A DNA stretch of 64,000 bases, taken from contig QHVE01000011.1 in the NCBI GenBank assembly GCA_003223455.1, positions 1 through 64,000 of the forward strand, written 5' to 3'. Origin of the DNA: Gemmatimonadota bacterium (GTDB lineage Bacteria; Gemmatimonadota; Gemmatimonadetes; Gemmatimonadales; Gemmatimonadaceae). How positions within the stretch are numbered: position 1 is the stretch's first letter; every line of letters starts with the position of its first letter. The position numbers were made by a program, and so were the translations under genes. Below the pieces are notes generated by a model. The model made no database searches. It was not told where the DNA came from and was given only the letters and a program-made list of their open reading frames with translations. Positions 21,586 through 29,045 of this stretch are shown piece by piece.

Positions 21586-22029
21586 ATGGAAATCATTCTC
21601 CGCCAGGCGGTCGAGAACCTGGGCAAGCCAGGCGACGTCGTCACGGTCAAGAACGGCTACGCTCGCAACTTCCTCCTTCCGCGCGGCTTCGCCTACGAGG
21701 CGACCCCGGGCAACCTGAAGCGCATCGCGCAGGAGCGCGGTCGCCTCGAGGCGGCCGAAAACGAGCGTGTCGGTTCCGCGCAGGAGCTCGCGAAGCGCCT
21801 CGAGGAGGTGCAGCTCACCTTCTCGGCGCGCGTCGGCGAGGAGGGCAAGCTGTTCGGTTCCGTCACGTCGGCCGACATCGCCGAGCAGCTGAACGCCCAG
21901 GGCTTTCACATCGAGAAGCGCCTGATCGACCTGCACGATCCGATCAAGGCACTCGGCGTGTACCGCGTGCCGATCAAGCTGCACGCGGACGTGAAGCCCG
22001 AAGTCCGCGTCTGGGTCATCAAGCAGTAG
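21586..22029 (+). CDS. rplI: 50S ribosomal protein L9 (bL9)
   Basis: A 147-aa bL9, standard length. N-domain signature MEIILRQAVENLGKPGDVVTVKNGYARNFLLPRGFA, linker helix rich in Glu/Arg, and C-domain (GKLFGSVTSADIAEQL, GVYRVPIKLHADV). Follows DUF2232 by 15 bp and ends at an intrinsic hairpin. Confidence 0.98.
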   Translation: MEIILRQAVENLGKPGDVVTVKNGYARNFLLPRGFAYEATPGNLKRIAQERGRLEAAENERVGSAQELAKRLEEVQLTFSARVGEEGKLFGSVTSADIAEQLNAQGFHIEKRLIDLHDPIKALGVYRVPIKLHADVKPEVRVWVIKQ

Positions 22030-22149: not shown

Positions 22150-22530
22150 ATGGCTGCCTCCCTTCCACATCCGGCCCAGACGTCGCTCGAAGTCGCGCAA
22201 CGCGCCGCGTCGATCCTGCTGGAGCACAAGGCGAACGACGTCGTGCTGCTCAGCCTGGAAGGCGTTTCGGACATGACCGACTTCTTTCTCATCGCGAGTG
22301 GCACGTCCGATACGCACGTGCGCTCGCTCGGCAACTCCGTGCTGGAGGAGATGAAGCGCGACAGCGGCCAGATGGCGCACCATGTCGAAGGTCTGTCACA
22401 GGGTCGCTGGGTGCTGCTCGACTACGTCGACGTGGTCGTGCACATCTTCCATCCGACGTTGCGTAGCTTCTATCAGATCGAGCGACTCTGGGCCGACGCC
22501 GAAACGGTGCCGCTGCAGTCGACCCGCTAG
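22150..22530 (+). CDS. rsfS: Ribosomal silencing factor RsfS
   Basis: A 126-aa RsfS (YbeB/Iojap family), which binds uL14 and blocks subunit joining under starvation. Signatures: ANDVVLLSLEGVSDMTDFFLIASGTSD, GQMAHHVEGLSQGRWVLLDYVDVVVHIFH and a terminal FYQIERLWADAE. Follows rplI after a terminator. Confidence 0.96.
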   Translation: MAASLPHPAQTSLEVAQRAASILLEHKANDVVLLSLEGVSDMTDFFLIASGTSDTHVRSLGNSVLEEMKRDSGQMAHHVEGLSQGRWVLLDYVDVVVHIFHPTLRSFYQIERLWADAETVPLQSTR

Positions 22531-22639
22531 CGATTCAGGACGCTCGTCGCCAGGCGCACCAACGCACGCGACGTCACGCGCCGCAGAGCGCCGCGCGCCG
22601 TGCGTCCGCCTATTCCTGATGGGTCCGGGAGACTAACTT

Positions 22640-24151
22640 TTGCCCGTGCGTTCACCCCTGCTCGCGATGGCGCTCGTGCTCGCTGCCTGCGGCCCCGCCG
22701 ATCGCGGGAGCGCCCATTCGGCGCGCGAGACCGCGTCGGCGATGAGTGCCGTCGCGCGAGGGCCGGACAACCTCGTGCTGCGCATCCCGCGCACGGGCGG
22801 CGAGGTTCGCGTGTTCGCCTATCCGCGTCTCGACACGATCGTGTGGAATGGAGCCGAAGCACCGGCGCCGGCGCGTGTGCTCGCCTTCGATGAGGAAGAA
22901 GGCGTCATCTCCATCGTCGACGCGCGGGGGCAAGCGGCGCGGATCGACTTCCGTCAGGGCGCCGGGAGCACGGTCACCAAGTCGAAGCTGACAGGGCTCA
23001 CGTCGAACGACGGCTCGACGATCTACGGAATCACCGCGGACGGCGTGGTCGAGCGCTACGCCAGGAGCGGCGGCTGGAAGTGGAAGCCCCCCGTCGCGGC
23101 GCGCGCCGTCTTCCCGCAGCCCGACGCCTCCCTGCTCGTCCTCGGCGAGCGTGCCGGCAGCTCGGTCGTGTGGAAGGTGCGGCCGCCGAGTACCCGCGTC
23201 GTCGACTCCGTGGTGTTGCCGCGCGTCGATCGCGCCCTCCGCACCCAGGTCGGTGATCTCCTCTACCTCGCCACGGAGCGCGAGCTGACGGGCGTGCGGA
23301 CCCGCAGCATGCAGCGTACGGCGAGCGTCGCGTTCGACGAGCCAGTCGAGCTGCTGTCCGCGACGCCAAGCGGCGATCGCGTGTTCGTCGTCACGAGCAC
23401 GGGAAAGTCCGTGCAGATCGTCGACCGGTATCGGGAGGCCGTGAGCGGATCGATCGAGCTGGGCCGACATCCCTCGGATCTGCGGATGGACCCACTGGGC
23501 CGCTATCTCCTGGCGCGGCTCGACGGCGTGGACTCGACGGTCGTCATCGCGCTCGGGACCAACCGCGTCGTCGGAACGCTCGCCACGGGTTGGCGCGCCG
23601 ACCTGCCATTCGTCGCGCCCGACGGAGGGATCGCGTTTGCCGACGGGAAAGACGTGATCGTCACCGACGGCACGACGCTGCGGCCGACGGCGCGCGTCTC
23701 CGGCGGAGCGGCGGACTTCTGGTATCCGTTCCGATGGACGGGCTTCCGCCCGCGCGCCGAAGGGCTGGACCAGCCGGTGGACTTCGCGGGCCCCCCTGTG
23801 GACTCGATGGGGGCACCGACCGATTCGGCCGCGCCGCGCGACTCCGCCGCCCCGTCCAAGGAACCGAGTCCGCCGCCGGCGCAGCCCGTGCCGCCGCCGC
23901 GCGACAGTGCCGTCCGTCGCCCGGCGGCGGGCTACACGGTATCGTTCGCCGCGCTGCTCGTCGCCGACAAGGCGCGCGATCTTGCGGCGTCGATTCGCGT
24001 CGGCAGCGAGAACGCGCGCGTCGTCACGGCGGTACGCGACGGCTCGACGATCTACCGCGTCGTGCTGGGCCCGTACACCACGCGCGAGGAAGCCGAGCGC
24101 ATCGGACGCGAGTCCAAGCAGTCCTACTGGATCTACGAGGGCGGCCCGTGA
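22640..24151 (+). CDS. SPOR-domain lipoprotein with beta-propeller-like body
   Basis: A 503-aa protein. I use the TTG at 22640 because GGGAG lies 8 bases upstream; a GTG at 22646 is the alternative. The signal ends in lipobox LAAC. Residues about 40-370 are repetitive short beta strands with Gly/Asp turns, including VGSIELGRHPSDLRMDPLGRYLLARL-like repeats, resembling a beta-propeller. A Pro/Ser-rich linker (about 385-430) precedes a C-terminal SPOR domain (YTVSFAALLVADKARDLAASI, then VVLGPYTTREEAERI). SPOR domains bind denuded septal glycan. The stop is coupled (GTGA) to the next SPOR protein and then to smc. Confidence 0.75.
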   Translation: MPVRSPLLAMALVLAACGPADRGSAHSARETASAMSAVARGPDNLVLRIPRTGGEVRVFAYPRLDTIVWNGAEAPAPARVLAFDEEEGVISIVDARGQAARIDFRQGAGSTVTKSKLTGLTSNDGSTIYGITADGVVERYARSGGWKWKPPVAARAVFPQPDASLLVLGERAGSSVVWKVRPPSTRVVDSVVLPRVDRALRTQVGDLLYLATERELTGVRTRSMQRTASVAFDEPVELLSATPSGDRVFVVTSTGKSVQIVDRYREAVSGSIELGRHPSDLRMDPLGRYLLARLDGVDSTVVIALGTNRVVGTLATGWRADLPFVAPDGGIAFADGKDVIVTDGTTLRPTARVSGGAADFWYPFRWTGFRPRAEGLDQPVDFAGPPVDSMGAPTDSAAPRDSAAPSKEPSPPPAQPVPPPRDSAVRRPAAGYTVSFAALLVADKARDLAASIRVGSENARVVTAVRDGSTIYRVVLGPYTTREEAERIGRESKQSYWIYEGGP

Positions 24152-25518
24152 GCGCGACACGCACGATCGACTGGAACGAGGAGGGCCGGCGCATCGGCGT
24201 CACGCTCGACGCGTTCCACGCGATCGTCGTCGTCGGCACGGATCCGACCGCCGCGGCCGAGACAGCGCTCGGCATCGCGCGCGTGCAGGCGGTGCATCGT
24301 CGCGTCGCGGTCGGGGACTTGCTCGGTGAGGCGCCGCCCATCCAGGCGCTCGTGAGCGGCGACGATCCCCACGGCATCGTCGACAGCTTCGTGTACGGCG
24401 TGTCGCTGTCGAAGATCGCGCAGCAGGTGCCCGACGCGGGCGAGCTGTTCGTGATGCCCACGGGCATCGGCCCGGTGGACTACGAGGAGCTCTTCGGGAG
24501 CAACCGCTGGCGGCGACTGATCGCGGGGTTTCGCGAGGTGGGGGCGCTGCTCGTCCTGGTCGCACCGACCGATGCGCCGATGGTGCACGCGCTGGTGGAC
24601 GTGAGCGACGGTGCGGTCATCGTGGGTGAGAAGGTGCCGGCGGAAGTCTCGGTCGCACAGTCGCTCGCATGGGTGCGCCCGCGTCGCGGCGCCGTCGCAC
24701 CCGCCGCCAGCGACGCATCGGCGGGGCCGGTGCCCGACGCAACCCCGACCTCCGGGGCGGCGGTCCCGTCGGGCGCCAGCGGTCCGCAGCGCTGGATCGG
24801 TGGCGTGCTCGCGCTGCTCGTGCTCCTCGCACTCGTGTACTGGGGCGCAAGCGCGTACTCGCAGCGACGCGCCGTGCAGCAGGCGGTGGCCGATTCGGCG
24901 GCGCGCGTAGCGGCGAATCGCGTGCGCGTGACCGACAGCATCGCCCGCCTGCGGCGTGACAGCATCGTGCGCGACAGCCTGGCGCTCCTCGAGGGCGCCG
25001 TGACGGACTCTTTCCCGGTGTACCGGCCTGCCAATCCAATCGATTCGGCGGCCGCCGTCGGCTACTCGATCCTGCTCTCCAAGTACAACACGAAATCGGG
25101 CGCGATCCTCGATCTGTTCGGTCGCTTCGCGCGGCTTCCCGCCTCGACGTACGGGATGGAGACGCCGTCGCGCTTCTATCTGCTGCTCGCTGGCGCCTTC
25201 CCGTCGCGAGCCTCCGCCGAGTCGCTGCTCGTCCGCCTGCGCGTGCAGGGCACGCTCGCGCGCGACTTCGGCAGCGTCGATCGCTATCCGCTCGCGTTCC
25301 TCGTGGATTCCGGCGTTGCACCGCGTGAAGCGCTCGGCCGCCTCAATCGTTACCATGCGCGTGGACTGCCGGTGTACGGGCTGCGTCAGCCGAACGGCAC
25401 CCTGCGACTGTACTTCGGCGCGTATGCCAACCCGGAGCAAGCGTCGCTCGCCGTGCCACAGGTGCGGGACGCAGGAATGCGCCCGCTGCTGGTCTATCGA
25501 ATCGGGAGAGTCTTCTAG
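24148..25518 (+). CDS. Membrane protein, P-loop-like N-domain and periplasmic SPOR-like tail
   Basis: A 456-aa protein from the GTG at 24148, overlapping the previous stop. Residues 1-170 form an alpha/beta domain (FHAIVVVGTDPTAAAETALGIARV, VGALLVLVAPTDAP) that looks like a BY-kinase/CpsD or ParA-type fold, but the Walker A Lys (GKS/T) is missing. One transmembrane helix lies near 215-235 (GGVLALLVLLALVYWGASAY). The external part has two SPOR-like repeats (YSILLSKYNTKSGAI, FYLLLAGAFPSRASAESLLVRLR, and LRLYFGAYANPEQASLAVPQ). It shares one base of its stop with the smc start. A role in division or chromosome segregation is inferred from context. Confidence 0.72.
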   Translation: MSATRTIDWNEEGRRIGVTLDAFHAIVVVGTDPTAAAETALGIARVQAVHRRVAVGDLLGEAPPIQALVSGDDPHGIVDSFVYGVSLSKIAQQVPDAGELFVMPTGIGPVDYEELFGSNRWRRLIAGFREVGALLVLVAPTDAPMVHALVDVSDGAVIVGEKVPAEVSVAQSLAWVRPRRGAVAPAASDASAGPVPDATPTSGAAVPSGASGPQRWIGGVLALLVLLALVYWGASAYSQRRAVQQAVADSAARVAANRVRVTDSIARLRRDSIVRDSLALLEGAVTDSFPVYRPANPIDSAAAVGYSILLSKYNTKSGAILDLFGRFARLPASTYGMETPSRFYLLLAGAFPSRASAESLLVRLRVQGTLARDFGSVDRYPLAFLVDSGVAPREALGRLNRYHARGLPVYGLRQPNGTLRLYFGAYANPEQASLAVPQVRDAGMRPLLVYRIGRVF

Positions 25519-28500
25519 TGCGTCTCACCAAGCTCGAGCTCCACGGATTCAAGTCGTTCGCCGATGCCACGAACCTCGTGTTCGAGCCCGGCGTGACGGC
25601 AATCGTGGGTCCGAACGGCTGTGGCAAGTCCAACGTCTCGGACGCCGTCCGCTGGGTGCTGGGTGAGCAGCGCGCCCGCCTGATGCGCGGTGCGAAGATG
25701 GACGAAGTGATCTTCCAGGGCTCGTCGGCGCGGCGGCCCGTGAACGTGGCCGAGGTCTCGCTGCACTTCTCGAACGAGGACGGGATCCTCCCCGTGCCGT
25801 TCCGCGAAGTGGTGATCACGCGCCGGCTTTCACGGTCGGGCGACAGCGATTACTTCCTGAATCGCGCCCCGTGCCGGCTGCGCGACATCGCCGATCTGCT
25901 GCGAGGCACGGGGCTGGGCGCGGGCACTGGCGTCGTCATCGAGAGCCGGATGATCGATGCGCTGCTCTCCGACCGCCCCGACGACCGCCGCGAGCTGTTC
26001 GAGGAGGCGGCGGGCGTCGGGCTCTACCGCGACCGACGACGCACGACGGAGCGTCGGCTCGAGGAGACGACGGGCGATCTGCAGCGGCTGGACGATCTGA
26101 TCAACGAAGTCGCGAGCCAGGTGCGGAGTCTCGCGCGTCAACGGAAGCGCGCCGAGCGCCACGCCGAGATCATGACGCGTCGCTTCACCGTCGAGCTCGC
26201 GCTCGCCGCGCGAGAGATGGAGGCATGGCGCGAGGAGTTGGGCCGCCTCGAGACCCGCCTGGTTGACCTGCGGGCGCAGCTGCCGGCCGCCGAGTCCGCG
26301 GCGCTCGATGCCGAGGCGGCGCGCGACCAGGCGCACGGAGGCCGGGCCGCCGCGGAGGCTCAGCGCAACGAGCTTTCGCGTCTCGTCAGTGCGCAGCGCG
26401 AGCAGGTGCAGCGCATCCGGGGCGAGATGGCGGTGGCGGAGGAGCGTCAGCGCAACGCGTCGGCGCGACGGCAGCGCGCGGAGGCCGAAGCGACGGCTGG
26501 TGAGCAGACGGGAGTGCAGATCGCCGCCGAGCGGGAGAATGCGGCGGCGGAGCGCGCGCGCGAAGAGTCGGAGCTCGCGTCGGCGGAAGCAGAGCTGGCG
26601 CGACACCAGGAGGCCGAGAACGAAGTGCGTCGCGTCGTCGCCGAGGCGCGCAACGCCGTGGAAGGTGCCGAACGCGAGCTGCGCGAGCTGCAGGATCGCG
26701 TCCGGCGCGTGGAGCACGAGCGCGAACGTGCCGTTCGCGAGCTCGACGAGGTGCGTCAGCGCGCCGACGCACTCGCGCAGGAGCAGGCCCGGCTCGACGA
26801 CGCGCTGGCCATGACGCGGCGCGAGCACGAGGAGCTGCAGGTGGAGGTCGACGCCGCGCAGGCGGCCGCCGCGGCCGCCGCGAGCGAGATGGAGGAGGCA
26901 CGCGCAGCGGATCGCGACGTGCGCGAGCGCGAGGCAGTCGCGCGCGCCGAGCTGTTTCGCGCCGACGAGGCGCTCACCGCGCTCCAGGGTCGAGTCAATG
27001 CGCTGGAGCAGCTCGAACGCGATCGCGTCGGCCTCGCGCCGGCCGCTTCGCGCCTGCTCCGCGAACGCGACCGCTTCGGGGAGGGCGCGGTACTCGGGCC
27101 GGTGTCGGACTTCATCGCGGCGGACCAGCAGTCGGCATTGCTCGTCGAGAAGTTCCTCGGCAACTCGGTGCACGCGGTGCTCGTGCGCGACCGCGACGTC
27201 GCCGACGCGATTCGCGTCTGGCACGGCGAAGCCAATCCCGGGCCGCTCCTGCTCCTTCCGCTCGATGCGGCCGCCGAGCCGAGCGAGAGTGGGCGCGAGG
27301 ACGGGCTGGAGTCCGTCGTCGACGCTGTCGGTCTCGGCCGCGCCTGGGTGCGCACGCTCCTCGGCCGCGTGCACGCGCTCGAGGGCGGCAGCGCGTTCGT
27401 CGATGCCCGTGGCGCGGTGTGGCTCCCCGGCACTGCGACTGGCCCCGGACCGCTGCGTCGGCGCGCCGAGCTGACCGAGCTGCGACGCGACCTCACGACG
27501 CTCGAAGCGCAACGGCAGGCAGCGTCGCGCACGGCCGACGCGATGCGCGAGTCTCTGCTCGCGAGCGAGCGGCGGGTGCTCGAGGCGACCGAGGCGGCAT
27601 CGGTCGCACAGCTTCAGGCACGGCAGACGCTGGAGCGTCAGGCGGAGTCGTCGCGGCGCGTCGCGCGGGCGACACGTGAGGCGCAGGAAGCGGCGACGCT
27701 CGCCGAACGTCTGGCGGCGCGAGCCGCCGAACTGGGTGACCGCCATCGCGCGCTCGACGCCGACACGGCGGCGCTCACCGAGCAGCTGGGGGCCCGCCAG
27801 CAGGCGATCGCCGACGCGCGCGAGCGGGCTAGCGTCGCCGAGCGAAGCCAGGAGGAGGCGCGAGAGCTTCGTGGCCGCTGGCAGGTGCGCCAGGCGGAGA
27901 CGCGAGCGCGTGTGCAGATGGCCGTCGATCGGGAGCGCCGCCTCGCGCAGGAAGTGTCGACCGCCACGCAGCGCCTCGCACAGCTCCGCGAGGAGCTCAG
28001 CGAGCTCGCGCTGTCCGACAGTGCGCTCGCCGAGCAGATGGCGTCGTGGACACTCGACCTGGAGACACGCGAAGCGACGCTCTCGGATGGCGAGGCGAGT
28101 CTCGCTGCCGCAGAAGCGGCAGTGCGAACCGCGGACACCGCGCTCGCCGATGCCGACCACGCCGTGAGCGAGCATCACCGTCGCCTCGCCGCCGCGAGCG
28201 ACGAGCTGCATCACGCCGAGCTGCGGTTCACCGAACTGTCGGGTCGTCGAGCCGCAATCCGCGAGCGGCTCGAGACCGAGTGGAAACGCCCGCTGGAGGA
28301 GATGATCGCCGAGGTGCCGCCGGTCGACCTCGACGACGACGCGCTGCGCATGGAGGCGGCCGAGCTTCGCCGCCAGATCGAGCAGCTCGGACCGGTCAAC
28401 GCGCTCGCCATCGAGGAGCACGACGAGACGATGAAGCGCCACGACTTCCTCGTCGCCCAGCGGGCCGACCTCGCCGAGGCCAAGGCGTCGCTGCTCCAGG

Positions 28501-29045
28501 CGATCAAGGAGATCGACGCCACGGCACGCGAGCTGTTCCTGGCCACCTTCGAGCAGGTCCGTGTCAACTTCCGCGAGATCTTCATGTCGCTGTTCGGCGG
28601 CGGCGAGTGCGACCTGCGGCTCGAGAATCCGGACGCACCGCTCGACTGCGACATCGAGATTCACGCGTCCCCGCGCGGCAAGAAGACGCAACGCATTCAT
28701 CTGCTGTCCAGCGGCGAGCGCGCACTCGTCGCCCTCTCCCTGCTGTTCGGCATCTTTCTCACGAAACCGAGTCCGTTCTGCCTTCTCGACGAGGTGGACG
28801 CGCCGCTCGACGACGCGAACGTCGGCCGCTTCGTGCGCATGTTGAACCAGTTCAAGAGTCGCACGCAGTTCATCGTCATCACGCACAATCCGCGGACGAC
28901 CACGGAAGCGGGCGACGCCGTCTACGGTGTGACGATGCAGGAGCCGGGTGTCTCGTCGCTGGTGAGCGTGCGCATGCGCGGGGCCTCGACCGAGGCGTCG
29001 CTTCCGCTGGAGCCGGTGGCCGAGGAGGCCGCCGTCACGTCGTGA
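25518..29045 (+). CDS. smc: Chromosome segregation protein SMC
   Basis: An 1175-aa SMC ATPase, the standard length. Walker A GPNGCGKSN is at residues 31-39. Coiled coil runs to about 510, then the hinge (GAVLGPVSDFIAADQQSALLVEKFL region, about 515-660), then the returning coiled coil. The C-terminal head has signature LLSSGERALVALSLLFGIF and Walker B FCLLDEVDAPLDDAN. The start is GTG, overlapping the preceding TAG by one base. SMC with ScpA/B organises the chromosome; scpA/scpB are not in the window. Antisense frames spanning this gene are composition artefacts. Confidence 0.98.
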   Translation: MRLTKLELHGFKSFADATNLVFEPGVTAIVGPNGCGKSNVSDAVRWVLGEQRARLMRGAKMDEVIFQGSSARRPVNVAEVSLHFSNEDGILPVPFREVVITRRLSRSGDSDYFLNRAPCRLRDIADLLRGTGLGAGTGVVIESRMIDALLSDRPDDRRELFEEAAGVGLYRDRRRTTERRLEETTGDLQRLDDLINEVASQVRSLARQRKRAERHAEIMTRRFTVELALAAREMEAWREELGRLETRLVDLRAQLPAAESAALDAEAARDQAHGGRAAAEAQRNELSRLVSAQREQVQRIRGEMAVAEERQRNASARRQRAEAEATAGEQTGVQIAAERENAAAERAREESELASAEAELARHQEAENEVRRVVAEARNAVEGAERELRELQDRVRRVEHERERAVRELDEVRQRADALAQEQARLDDALAMTRREHEELQVEVDAAQAAAAAAASEMEEARAADRDVREREAVARAELFRADEALTALQGRVNALEQLERDRVGLAPAASRLLRERDRFGEGAVLGPVSDFIAADQQSALLVEKFLGNSVHAVLVRDRDVADAIRVWHGEANPGPLLLLPLDAAAEPSESGREDGLESVVDAVGLGRAWVRTLLGRVHALEGGSAFVDARGAVWLPGTATGPGPLRRRAELTELRRDLTTLEAQRQAASRTADAMRESLLASERRVLEATEAASVAQLQARQTLERQAESSRRVARATREAQEAATLAERLAARAAELGDRHRALDADTAALTEQLGARQQAIADARERASVAERSQEEARELRGRWQVRQAETRARVQMAVDRERRLAQEVSTATQRLAQLREELSELALSDSALAEQMASWTLDLETREATLSDGEASLAAAEAAVRTADTALADADHAVSEHHRRLAAASDELHHAELRFTELSGRRAAIRERLETEWKRPLEEMIAEVPPVDLDDDALRMEAAELRRQIEQLGPVNALAIEEHDETMKRHDFLVAQRADLAEAKASLLQAIKEIDATARELFLATFEQVRVNFREIFMSLFGGGECDLRLENPDAPLDCDIEIHASPRGKKTQRIHLLSSGERALVALSLLFGIFLTKPSPFCLLDEVDAPLDDANVGRFVRMLNQFKSRTQFIVITHNPRTTTEAGDAVYGVTMQEPGVSSLVSVRMRGASTEASLPLEPVAEEAAVTS

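Follow-up and report, generated by a model that had tools for sequence, protein, structure and literature searches.

What is known of how bacteria coordinate the closing of the septum with chromosome segregation comes mainly from FtsK, Noc/SlmA and the Min systems. ParA-superfamily folds dock division and segregation partners. At the envelope, the SPOR proteins FtsN and DamX share a layout with a cytoplasmic N-terminus, one transmembrane (TM) helix, a linker and a C-terminal periplasmic SPOR domain, and the DamX of some gamma-proteobacteria has an AAA version of it. The SPOR domain of a further protein of this type, RgsS, binds amidase-processed peptidoglycan (PMC7822825), and the bacterial tyrosine kinase (BY-kinase) CpsD binds ParB in Streptococcus pneumoniae (PMC4574921). 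Here we analyse a locus of a Gemmatimonadota bacterium that joins SPOR domains to a degenerate relative of the BY-kinases. The window is a stretch of 64,000 nucleotides (contig QHVE01000011.1, family Gemmatimonadaceae), in which two genes, here called P1 and P2, run directly into smc, the gene for the chromosome segregation ATPase (Table 1).

A degenerate BY-kinase domain on a predicted membrane SPOR protein

P2 is a predicted single-pass inner-membrane protein with its N-terminus inside the cell, a topology that we infer from the sequence and from a structure model. It consists, in order, of an N-terminal domain (N-domain), a linker rich in proline and alanine, a TM helix, a helical linker and two SPOR-like folds. 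A Pfam search with the single P2 sequence returned no match for the N-domain, and a family alignment was needed to place it. A profile of 38 diverse members, run against PDB sequences, retrieved the BY-kinases BceF (E = 8.3e-12), Wzc (1e-9) and VpsO (6.2e-9). The NCBIfam tyrosine-autokinase models TIGR03018 and EpsG each matched 33 of the 38 members (best 2.8e-10), with scores for the first member shown that lie far under the curated cut-offs, as expected for a degenerate relative. Alignment with hhalign to BY-kinases of the same phylum gave 98.7% and E = 1.7e-15, on a template of four sequences, one from each of the 4 of 20 scanned loci that carry a strict BY-kinase motif.

The AlphaFold model of P2, built from 40 sequences (predicted local distance difference test, pLDDT, 86.1), contains an alpha/beta domain at about residues 20–180. 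In a structural comparison with the PDB, which covered this domain and the P1 propeller, its closest match was VpsO (Z 17.8 over 180 residues, 3.9 Å), with Wzc, CapB, Etk and BceF behind it (Z 13–16), followed by MinD (Z 12.4) and Soj/ParA (about 12).

The kinase-domain fold and sequence that P2 has in common with BY-kinases such as Wzc, CapB, CpsD, VpsO and BceF lie mainly after the P-loop. The profile search gave 15 BY-kinase rows, and in 11 the match begins at profile position 40–42, which we read as a position just behind the Walker A lysine. Across an alignment of 76 members, the presumed column of that lysine holds lysine in none and alanine in 53, with tryptophan as its left neighbour in 46; the presumed Walker B aspartate column is mostly leucine, valine, alanine or isoleucine, and 70 members retain the presumed first aspartate of the A′ motif, these column assignments all resting on the hhalign pairing and its reading. 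A Walker A motif (GK[ST]) was found at the P-loop position in 0 of 76 homologues, two GKS lying elsewhere, at about residues 147–150. The C-terminal tyrosine cluster of BY-kinases is absent as well, with a mean of 0.47 and a maximum of 3 tyrosines after the domain in the 76 rows.

Because kinship with BY-kinases is combined with the loss of the Walker motifs, the N-domain is, as judged from sequence and model, a pseudo-BY-kinase of the ParA/MinD superfamily. Its fold identity is much firmer than its function. The sequence-only reading had called this domain P-loop-like but Walker-less, which is correct and can now be made more precise, the domain being a degenerate BY-kinase; an active P-loop ATPase was rejected as a description of P2, since no homologue read carries Walker A at the P-loop. 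Compared with the BY-kinases, P2 has lost Walker A and B and the tyrosine cluster, carries SPOR in place of the chain-length domain and has the reverse of the domain order in Wzc, its kinase domain coming before the TM helix.

The other half of P2 fits the earlier description of a membrane SPOR protein with a cytoplasmic domain, the TM helix being predicted both from the sequence and in the model. A hydrophobic segment lies behind the N-domain in 60 of 74 homologues, and a weak Pfam match to Tad across the TM region (18.8 bits) is under its cut-off. The SPOR family PF05036, with a curated cut-off of 21 bits, matches whole P2 at 27.0 bits (E = 5.9e-6) in two stretches, which score 16.7 and 15.6 bits when taken separately and so fall under the cut-off. 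P2 would be laid out as the bitopic SPOR proteins FtsN, DamX and RgsS are, from a cytoplasmic N-terminus through one TM helix and a linker to C-terminal periplasmic SPOR; it differs from them in its two SPOR domains, in the folded pseudo-BY-kinase predicted inside and in being encoded with smc.

A propeller lipoprotein encoded before P2

P1 had been read as a propeller-like SPOR lipoprotein, and each of the three elements is borne out. Residues 14–17 read LAAC, with A16 and C17 shared by at least 90% of the 37 sequences aligned, so that P1 is probably lipid-anchored. Its AlphaFold model, from 37 sequences (pLDDT 83.7), contains a beta-propeller at residues 43–366, nearest to NirF, NirN, cd1 nitrite reductase and AztD (Z 21–23, root-mean-square deviation about 4 Å over about 318 residues). 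A SPOR-like fold follows at 432–500, reached through a low-confidence linker, and PF05036 matches residues 429–487 at 32.7 bits (E = 9.7e-8; 36.1 bits in the genome search). In the AlphaFold models, the SPOR parts of P1 (432–500) and P2 (305–450) both show, by eye, the element order beta-alpha-beta-beta-alpha-beta. The propeller fold is common to P1 and NirF, NirN and AztD, from which P1 differs in sequence (12–14% identity), in its fusion to SPOR and in its probable lipid anchor.

In the genome search of this assembly only P1 scored above the SPOR cut-off, and three other frames were weak (E 0.29–1.03). The idea that P1 and P2 are the sole SPOR proteins of the phylum was dropped, as relatives carry further ones.

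Gene order at smc across the phylum

The reading frames given in the sequence-only reading, and their overlaps of 1–4 bp into smc, are confirmed (4 bp for P1/P2, 1 bp for P2/smc); from these overlaps, P1, P2 and smc may be translationally coupled. The claim that two SPOR proteins precede smc also stands, with PF05036 above its cut-off in both whole proteins. A chance overlap of open frames is ruled out because P1 and P2 are both conserved across the phylum. Full or partial matches to P2 were found in 127 of 200 phylum genomes and to P1 in 133; smc was found in 195.

Table 1. Features of the P1-P2-smc locus (window positions, forward strand +)
Feature	Position	Strand	Basis or remark
P1	22640..24151	+	TTG start, TGA stop; predicted lipoprotein, beta-propeller and C-terminal SPOR
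P1 putative signal peptide with lipobox-like LAAC, Cys17	22640..22693	+	sequence read by eye
P1 beta-propeller, residues 43-366	22766..23737	+	AlphaFold model; structural matches
P1 SPOR domain, residues 429-487	23924..24100	+	PF05036
P1 stop / P2 start overlap, 4 bp, GTGA	24148..24151	+	
P2	24148..25518	+	GTG start, TAG stop; predicted pseudo-BY-kinase domain, TM helix, tandem SPOR
P2 predicted cytoplasmic degenerate BY-kinase (ParA/MinD-like) domain, ~residues 20-180, without Walker A or B	24205..24687	+	
P2 predicted TM helix, ~residues 216-235	24793..24852	+	sequence; model helix from 219
P2 tandem SPOR-like folds, residues 305-450	25060..25497	+	PF05036, two stretches; AlphaFold model
P2 stop (TAG) / smc start (GTG) overlap, 1 bp, TAGTG	25518..25518	+	
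smc, chromosome segregation ATPase	25518..29045	+	GTG start; TIGR02168 884 bits
rsfS, upstream neighbour (control)	22150..22530	+	PF02410
rplI, upstream neighbour (control)	21586..22029	+	PF01281 and PF03948

We then read 100 loci chosen by the position of smc among the matches listed, from 20 of the listed genomes of family f1 and from most of the other genomes listed. P1, P2 or both lie directly before smc in 87 of them. The whole trio P1-P2-smc occurs in 39 (38 with full P2, one with only its SPOR half), spread over f1 (20), f2 (15), f3 (1) and f7 (3). P1 adjoins smc without P2 in 24 loci, all from f2, and P2 with both halves stands without P1 in 11. A further 11, all from f5, have the P2 N-domain before smc without the SPOR half, each with a TM segment, and two loci on short contigs have the SPOR half of P2 only and no P1. 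The trio was also found in three f9 loci chosen by P1/P2 position. A trio confined to this species would have refuted the sequence-only reading; this was not the case, the trio extending to four families in the 100 loci and to f9.

P2 ends at most 200 bp from smc in 63 of the 100 loci. The two genes share 4 bp in 36 of these and 1 bp in 6, abut in 10 and are separated by 1–159 bp in 11. Among 20 further loci chosen by P1/P2 position, P2 is directly before smc in 14 (from f4, f5, f6, f7 and f9), and no smc start was read in the remaining six, of which five are from f10 and one is from f9. A contig scan with the window P2, which used one peptide pattern, returned 43 loci, 41 of them with Gemmatimonadota-type names, one named 'bacterium' and one Kuenenia; smc was read in 38 of the 43, and P2 is directly before it in all 38. 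The locus labelled Candidatus Kuenenia stuttgartiensis (L217) holds the whole trio with Gemmatimonadaceae-like sequence and is probably from a misnamed bin.

Relocation of P2 was considered for the genomes that lack it next to smc. When 37 of them were searched with the profile (E up to 1e-6), 19 genomes yielded 21 matches, 20 of them in frames of 563–922 amino acids, the size of BY-kinases, and one in a 323-amino-acid frame in G050. Since the matches are BY-kinase-sized save this one, relocation was rejected, although in many of the genomes the scoring took in only 83 of the candidates and may have missed a case.

Two further arrangements were seen upstream of smc. A protein of about 1060 amino acids with an HExxH motif and a PD40 propeller lies between rsfS and P1 in the five relatives read (L063, L067, L080, L082 and L104), measuring 1061–1090 amino acids where read whole (HExxH by eye). 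In the window genome the gap between rsfS and P1 is 109 bp (22531-22639), and the best match to this putative peptidase is on another contig (C60:5792-8842). A direct overlap of rsfS with smc, with P1 and P2 absent, was read in L139, L143–L148 (genus g54 of f5) and L149; 6 of 8 g54 genomes gave no SPOR match at threshold.

Relatives of the P2 membrane half with an ATPase domain

Family f10, an outgroup placed in another class by its kinship label, has proteins that match P2 in the TM-SPOR half, at loci L168–L172. Four of these five proteins were read (L168, L169, L171 and L172), and all four begin with an AAA_22/ExeA-like ATPase domain; that of L168 matches TIGR03015 at 9.4e-87, below the curated cut-off, and SPOR at 1.6e-10. 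The TM and tandem SPOR half is thus related in P2 and in these proteins, whereas their N-domain is an AAA+ ATPase with an intact P-loop. The start of smc was not found in the five f10 loci. In L172 the start of this gene coincides with the very end of a secretin gene, and PilM/PilN-like genes belong to the cluster, an arrangement suggestive of ExeA-type secretin assembly in a SPOR variant. A layout of P-loop-type domain, TM helix and SPOR therefore exists with two different cytoplasmic parts in the phylum.

Possible roles of P1 and P2

The explanation that we favour, and hold tentatively, is that P1 and P2 make up the envelope part of a gene cluster for the cell cycle and are co-expressed with smc, with a dead kinase domain that docks a cytoplasmic partner. 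P1 would be an envelope lipoprotein combining propeller and SPOR, and P2 an inner-membrane protein built like FtsN or DamX. Through their SPOR domains, both would be expected to attach to septal glycan denuded by amidases and so to gather at the constriction; the window genome has two Amidase_3 genes, which could make this ligand. Because SPOR binds amidase-processed peptidoglycan, P2 would be placed at the septum, its dead kinase fold facing the cytoplasm, and because the ATP site has been lost, this BY-kinase relative would not cycle and would instead offer a fixed docking surface, bringing a cytoplasmic partner to the septum.

The sequence-only reading had suggested a possible link between septal wall and chromosome organisation, which is partly supported. 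Kinship of the N-domain with BY-kinases and the ParA/MinD superfamily makes it more plausible that the partner has to do with the chromosome or with division. We favour the machinery of chromosome segregation (SMC-ScpAB or ParB) as this partner, since P2 overlaps smc and the BY-kinase CpsD binds ParB. The window genome contains an ScpA gene and five AAA_31 matches, the best of which, a 280-amino-acid frame, we take to be ParA-like. The CpsD-ParB link (PMC4574921) is a parallel in that a BY-kinase fold at the division site touches chromosome partitioning; CpsD is active as a kinase in capsule synthesis, whereas P2 is inactive by sequence. A stricter form of the proposal, in which P2 tethers wall to chromosome by gripping denuded septal glycan with its SPOR pair while its dead fold keeps SMC-ScpAB or ParB at the septum, we regard as doubtful.

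Several observations weigh against a link to SMC. Of the 100 loci, 94 have the control gene rsfS upstream of smc and 91 have rplI there (some of the absences may be contig ends), and we know of no function that either shares with smc. The stability of this rplI-rsfS-smc backbone equals or exceeds that of P1/P2. Since rsfS and rplI are as tied to smc, gene order argues only weakly for SMC contact, and the conserved order of P1 and P2 alone is no proof of partnership. P2 is missing from 24 of 39 f2 loci, and both P1 and P2 from 13 of 30 f5 loci, with smc kept; 8 of these f5 loci show a direct 4-bp overlap between rsfS and smc. P1 was not found at smc in the f4, f5, f6 and f8 loci of the 100-locus sample. 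P1 and P2 also diverge fast. Within f1, the median identity to the window sequence is 43% for P1, 44% for the P2 N-domain and 35% for the P2 SPOR half, as compared with 86% for the SMC N-terminus, 75% for rplI and 65% for rsfS. The pseudo-kinase domain appears lost or unrecognisable in G129 (L069), where no matching N-domain was found and the SPOR half and smc adjacency are kept, and in G024, where a single-protein search matched the SPOR half and not the N-domain. In 15 of 101 genomes, no SPOR protein was found at threshold.

The equal conservation of the ribosomal neighbours, the coming and going of P1/P2 from a block that stays and the fast divergence of both proteins would be expected if P1 and P2 were ordinary septal envelope proteins carried along in a housekeeping cluster (rpsF-DUF2232-rplI-rsfS-(peptidase)-P1-P2-smc), co-expressed with smc and making no contact with its product, the pseudo-kinase domain binding a divisome or cell-wall partner. 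We give this account about as much credence as the one we favour, and the two are in effect tied. It sits less easily with P2 adjoining smc, within the class, in the loci read where both are present. Moreover, P1-P2-smc stayed together in the window genome although the peptidase's best match is on another contig, and in f5 the N-domain stands before smc even where no SPOR half was seen, while all but one of the profile matches in the 37 genomes without P2 at smc, in which not every candidate was scored, are BY-kinase-sized; these observations go beyond the rplI-rsfS-smc backbone.

The kinship of the N-domain with kinases of exopolysaccharide systems raises another option, that P2 serves envelope export or polysaccharide assembly. 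It could be the relic of a BY-kinase or an ExeA-like module that makes an opening in the wall for a secretin or polymer, its SPOR part binding the wall. The related TM-SPOR half in f10, which carries AAA_22 with an intact P-loop, and the L172 gene at the end of a secretin gene near PilM/PilN-like genes are consistent with it. We nevertheless consider it unlikely: the gene partners within the class are rsfS and smc, no secretin or polymerase was found among the 17 window proteins scanned with Pfam, and the catalytic site and tyrosine cluster are absent. Less probable still is a MinD-like role in division-site placement through non-canonical nucleotide binding, to which the fold match to MinD and the presumed first A′ aspartate would lend themselves. 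No homologue read has Walker A at the P-loop, and P2 has a predicted fixed TM anchor, whereas MinD is anchored by a reversible amphipathic helix.

Significance

SPOR proteins and BY-kinases are each already known. A literature search for 'SPOR domain' together with 'BY-kinase', covering few subscription papers, found none, and neither did one for the SPOR domain with Gemmatimonadota; with Gemmatimonadetes, nothing related was found by title. Searches on Gemmatimonas with cell division and smc, and on SPOR with beta-propeller and lipoprotein, likewise gave nothing on this pair by title.

P2 is a clear case of a BY-kinase relative turned probable scaffold. As a neighbour of smc across the phylum, with a predicted septum-binding part outside and a docking fold of the ParA/BY-kinase type inside, it is a candidate for a direct link between wall and nucleoid, and one that comes from a little-studied phylum. 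If the tether were true, a single membrane protein, encoded by a gene that overlaps smc, would link constriction with the clearing of the chromosome in much of the phylum.

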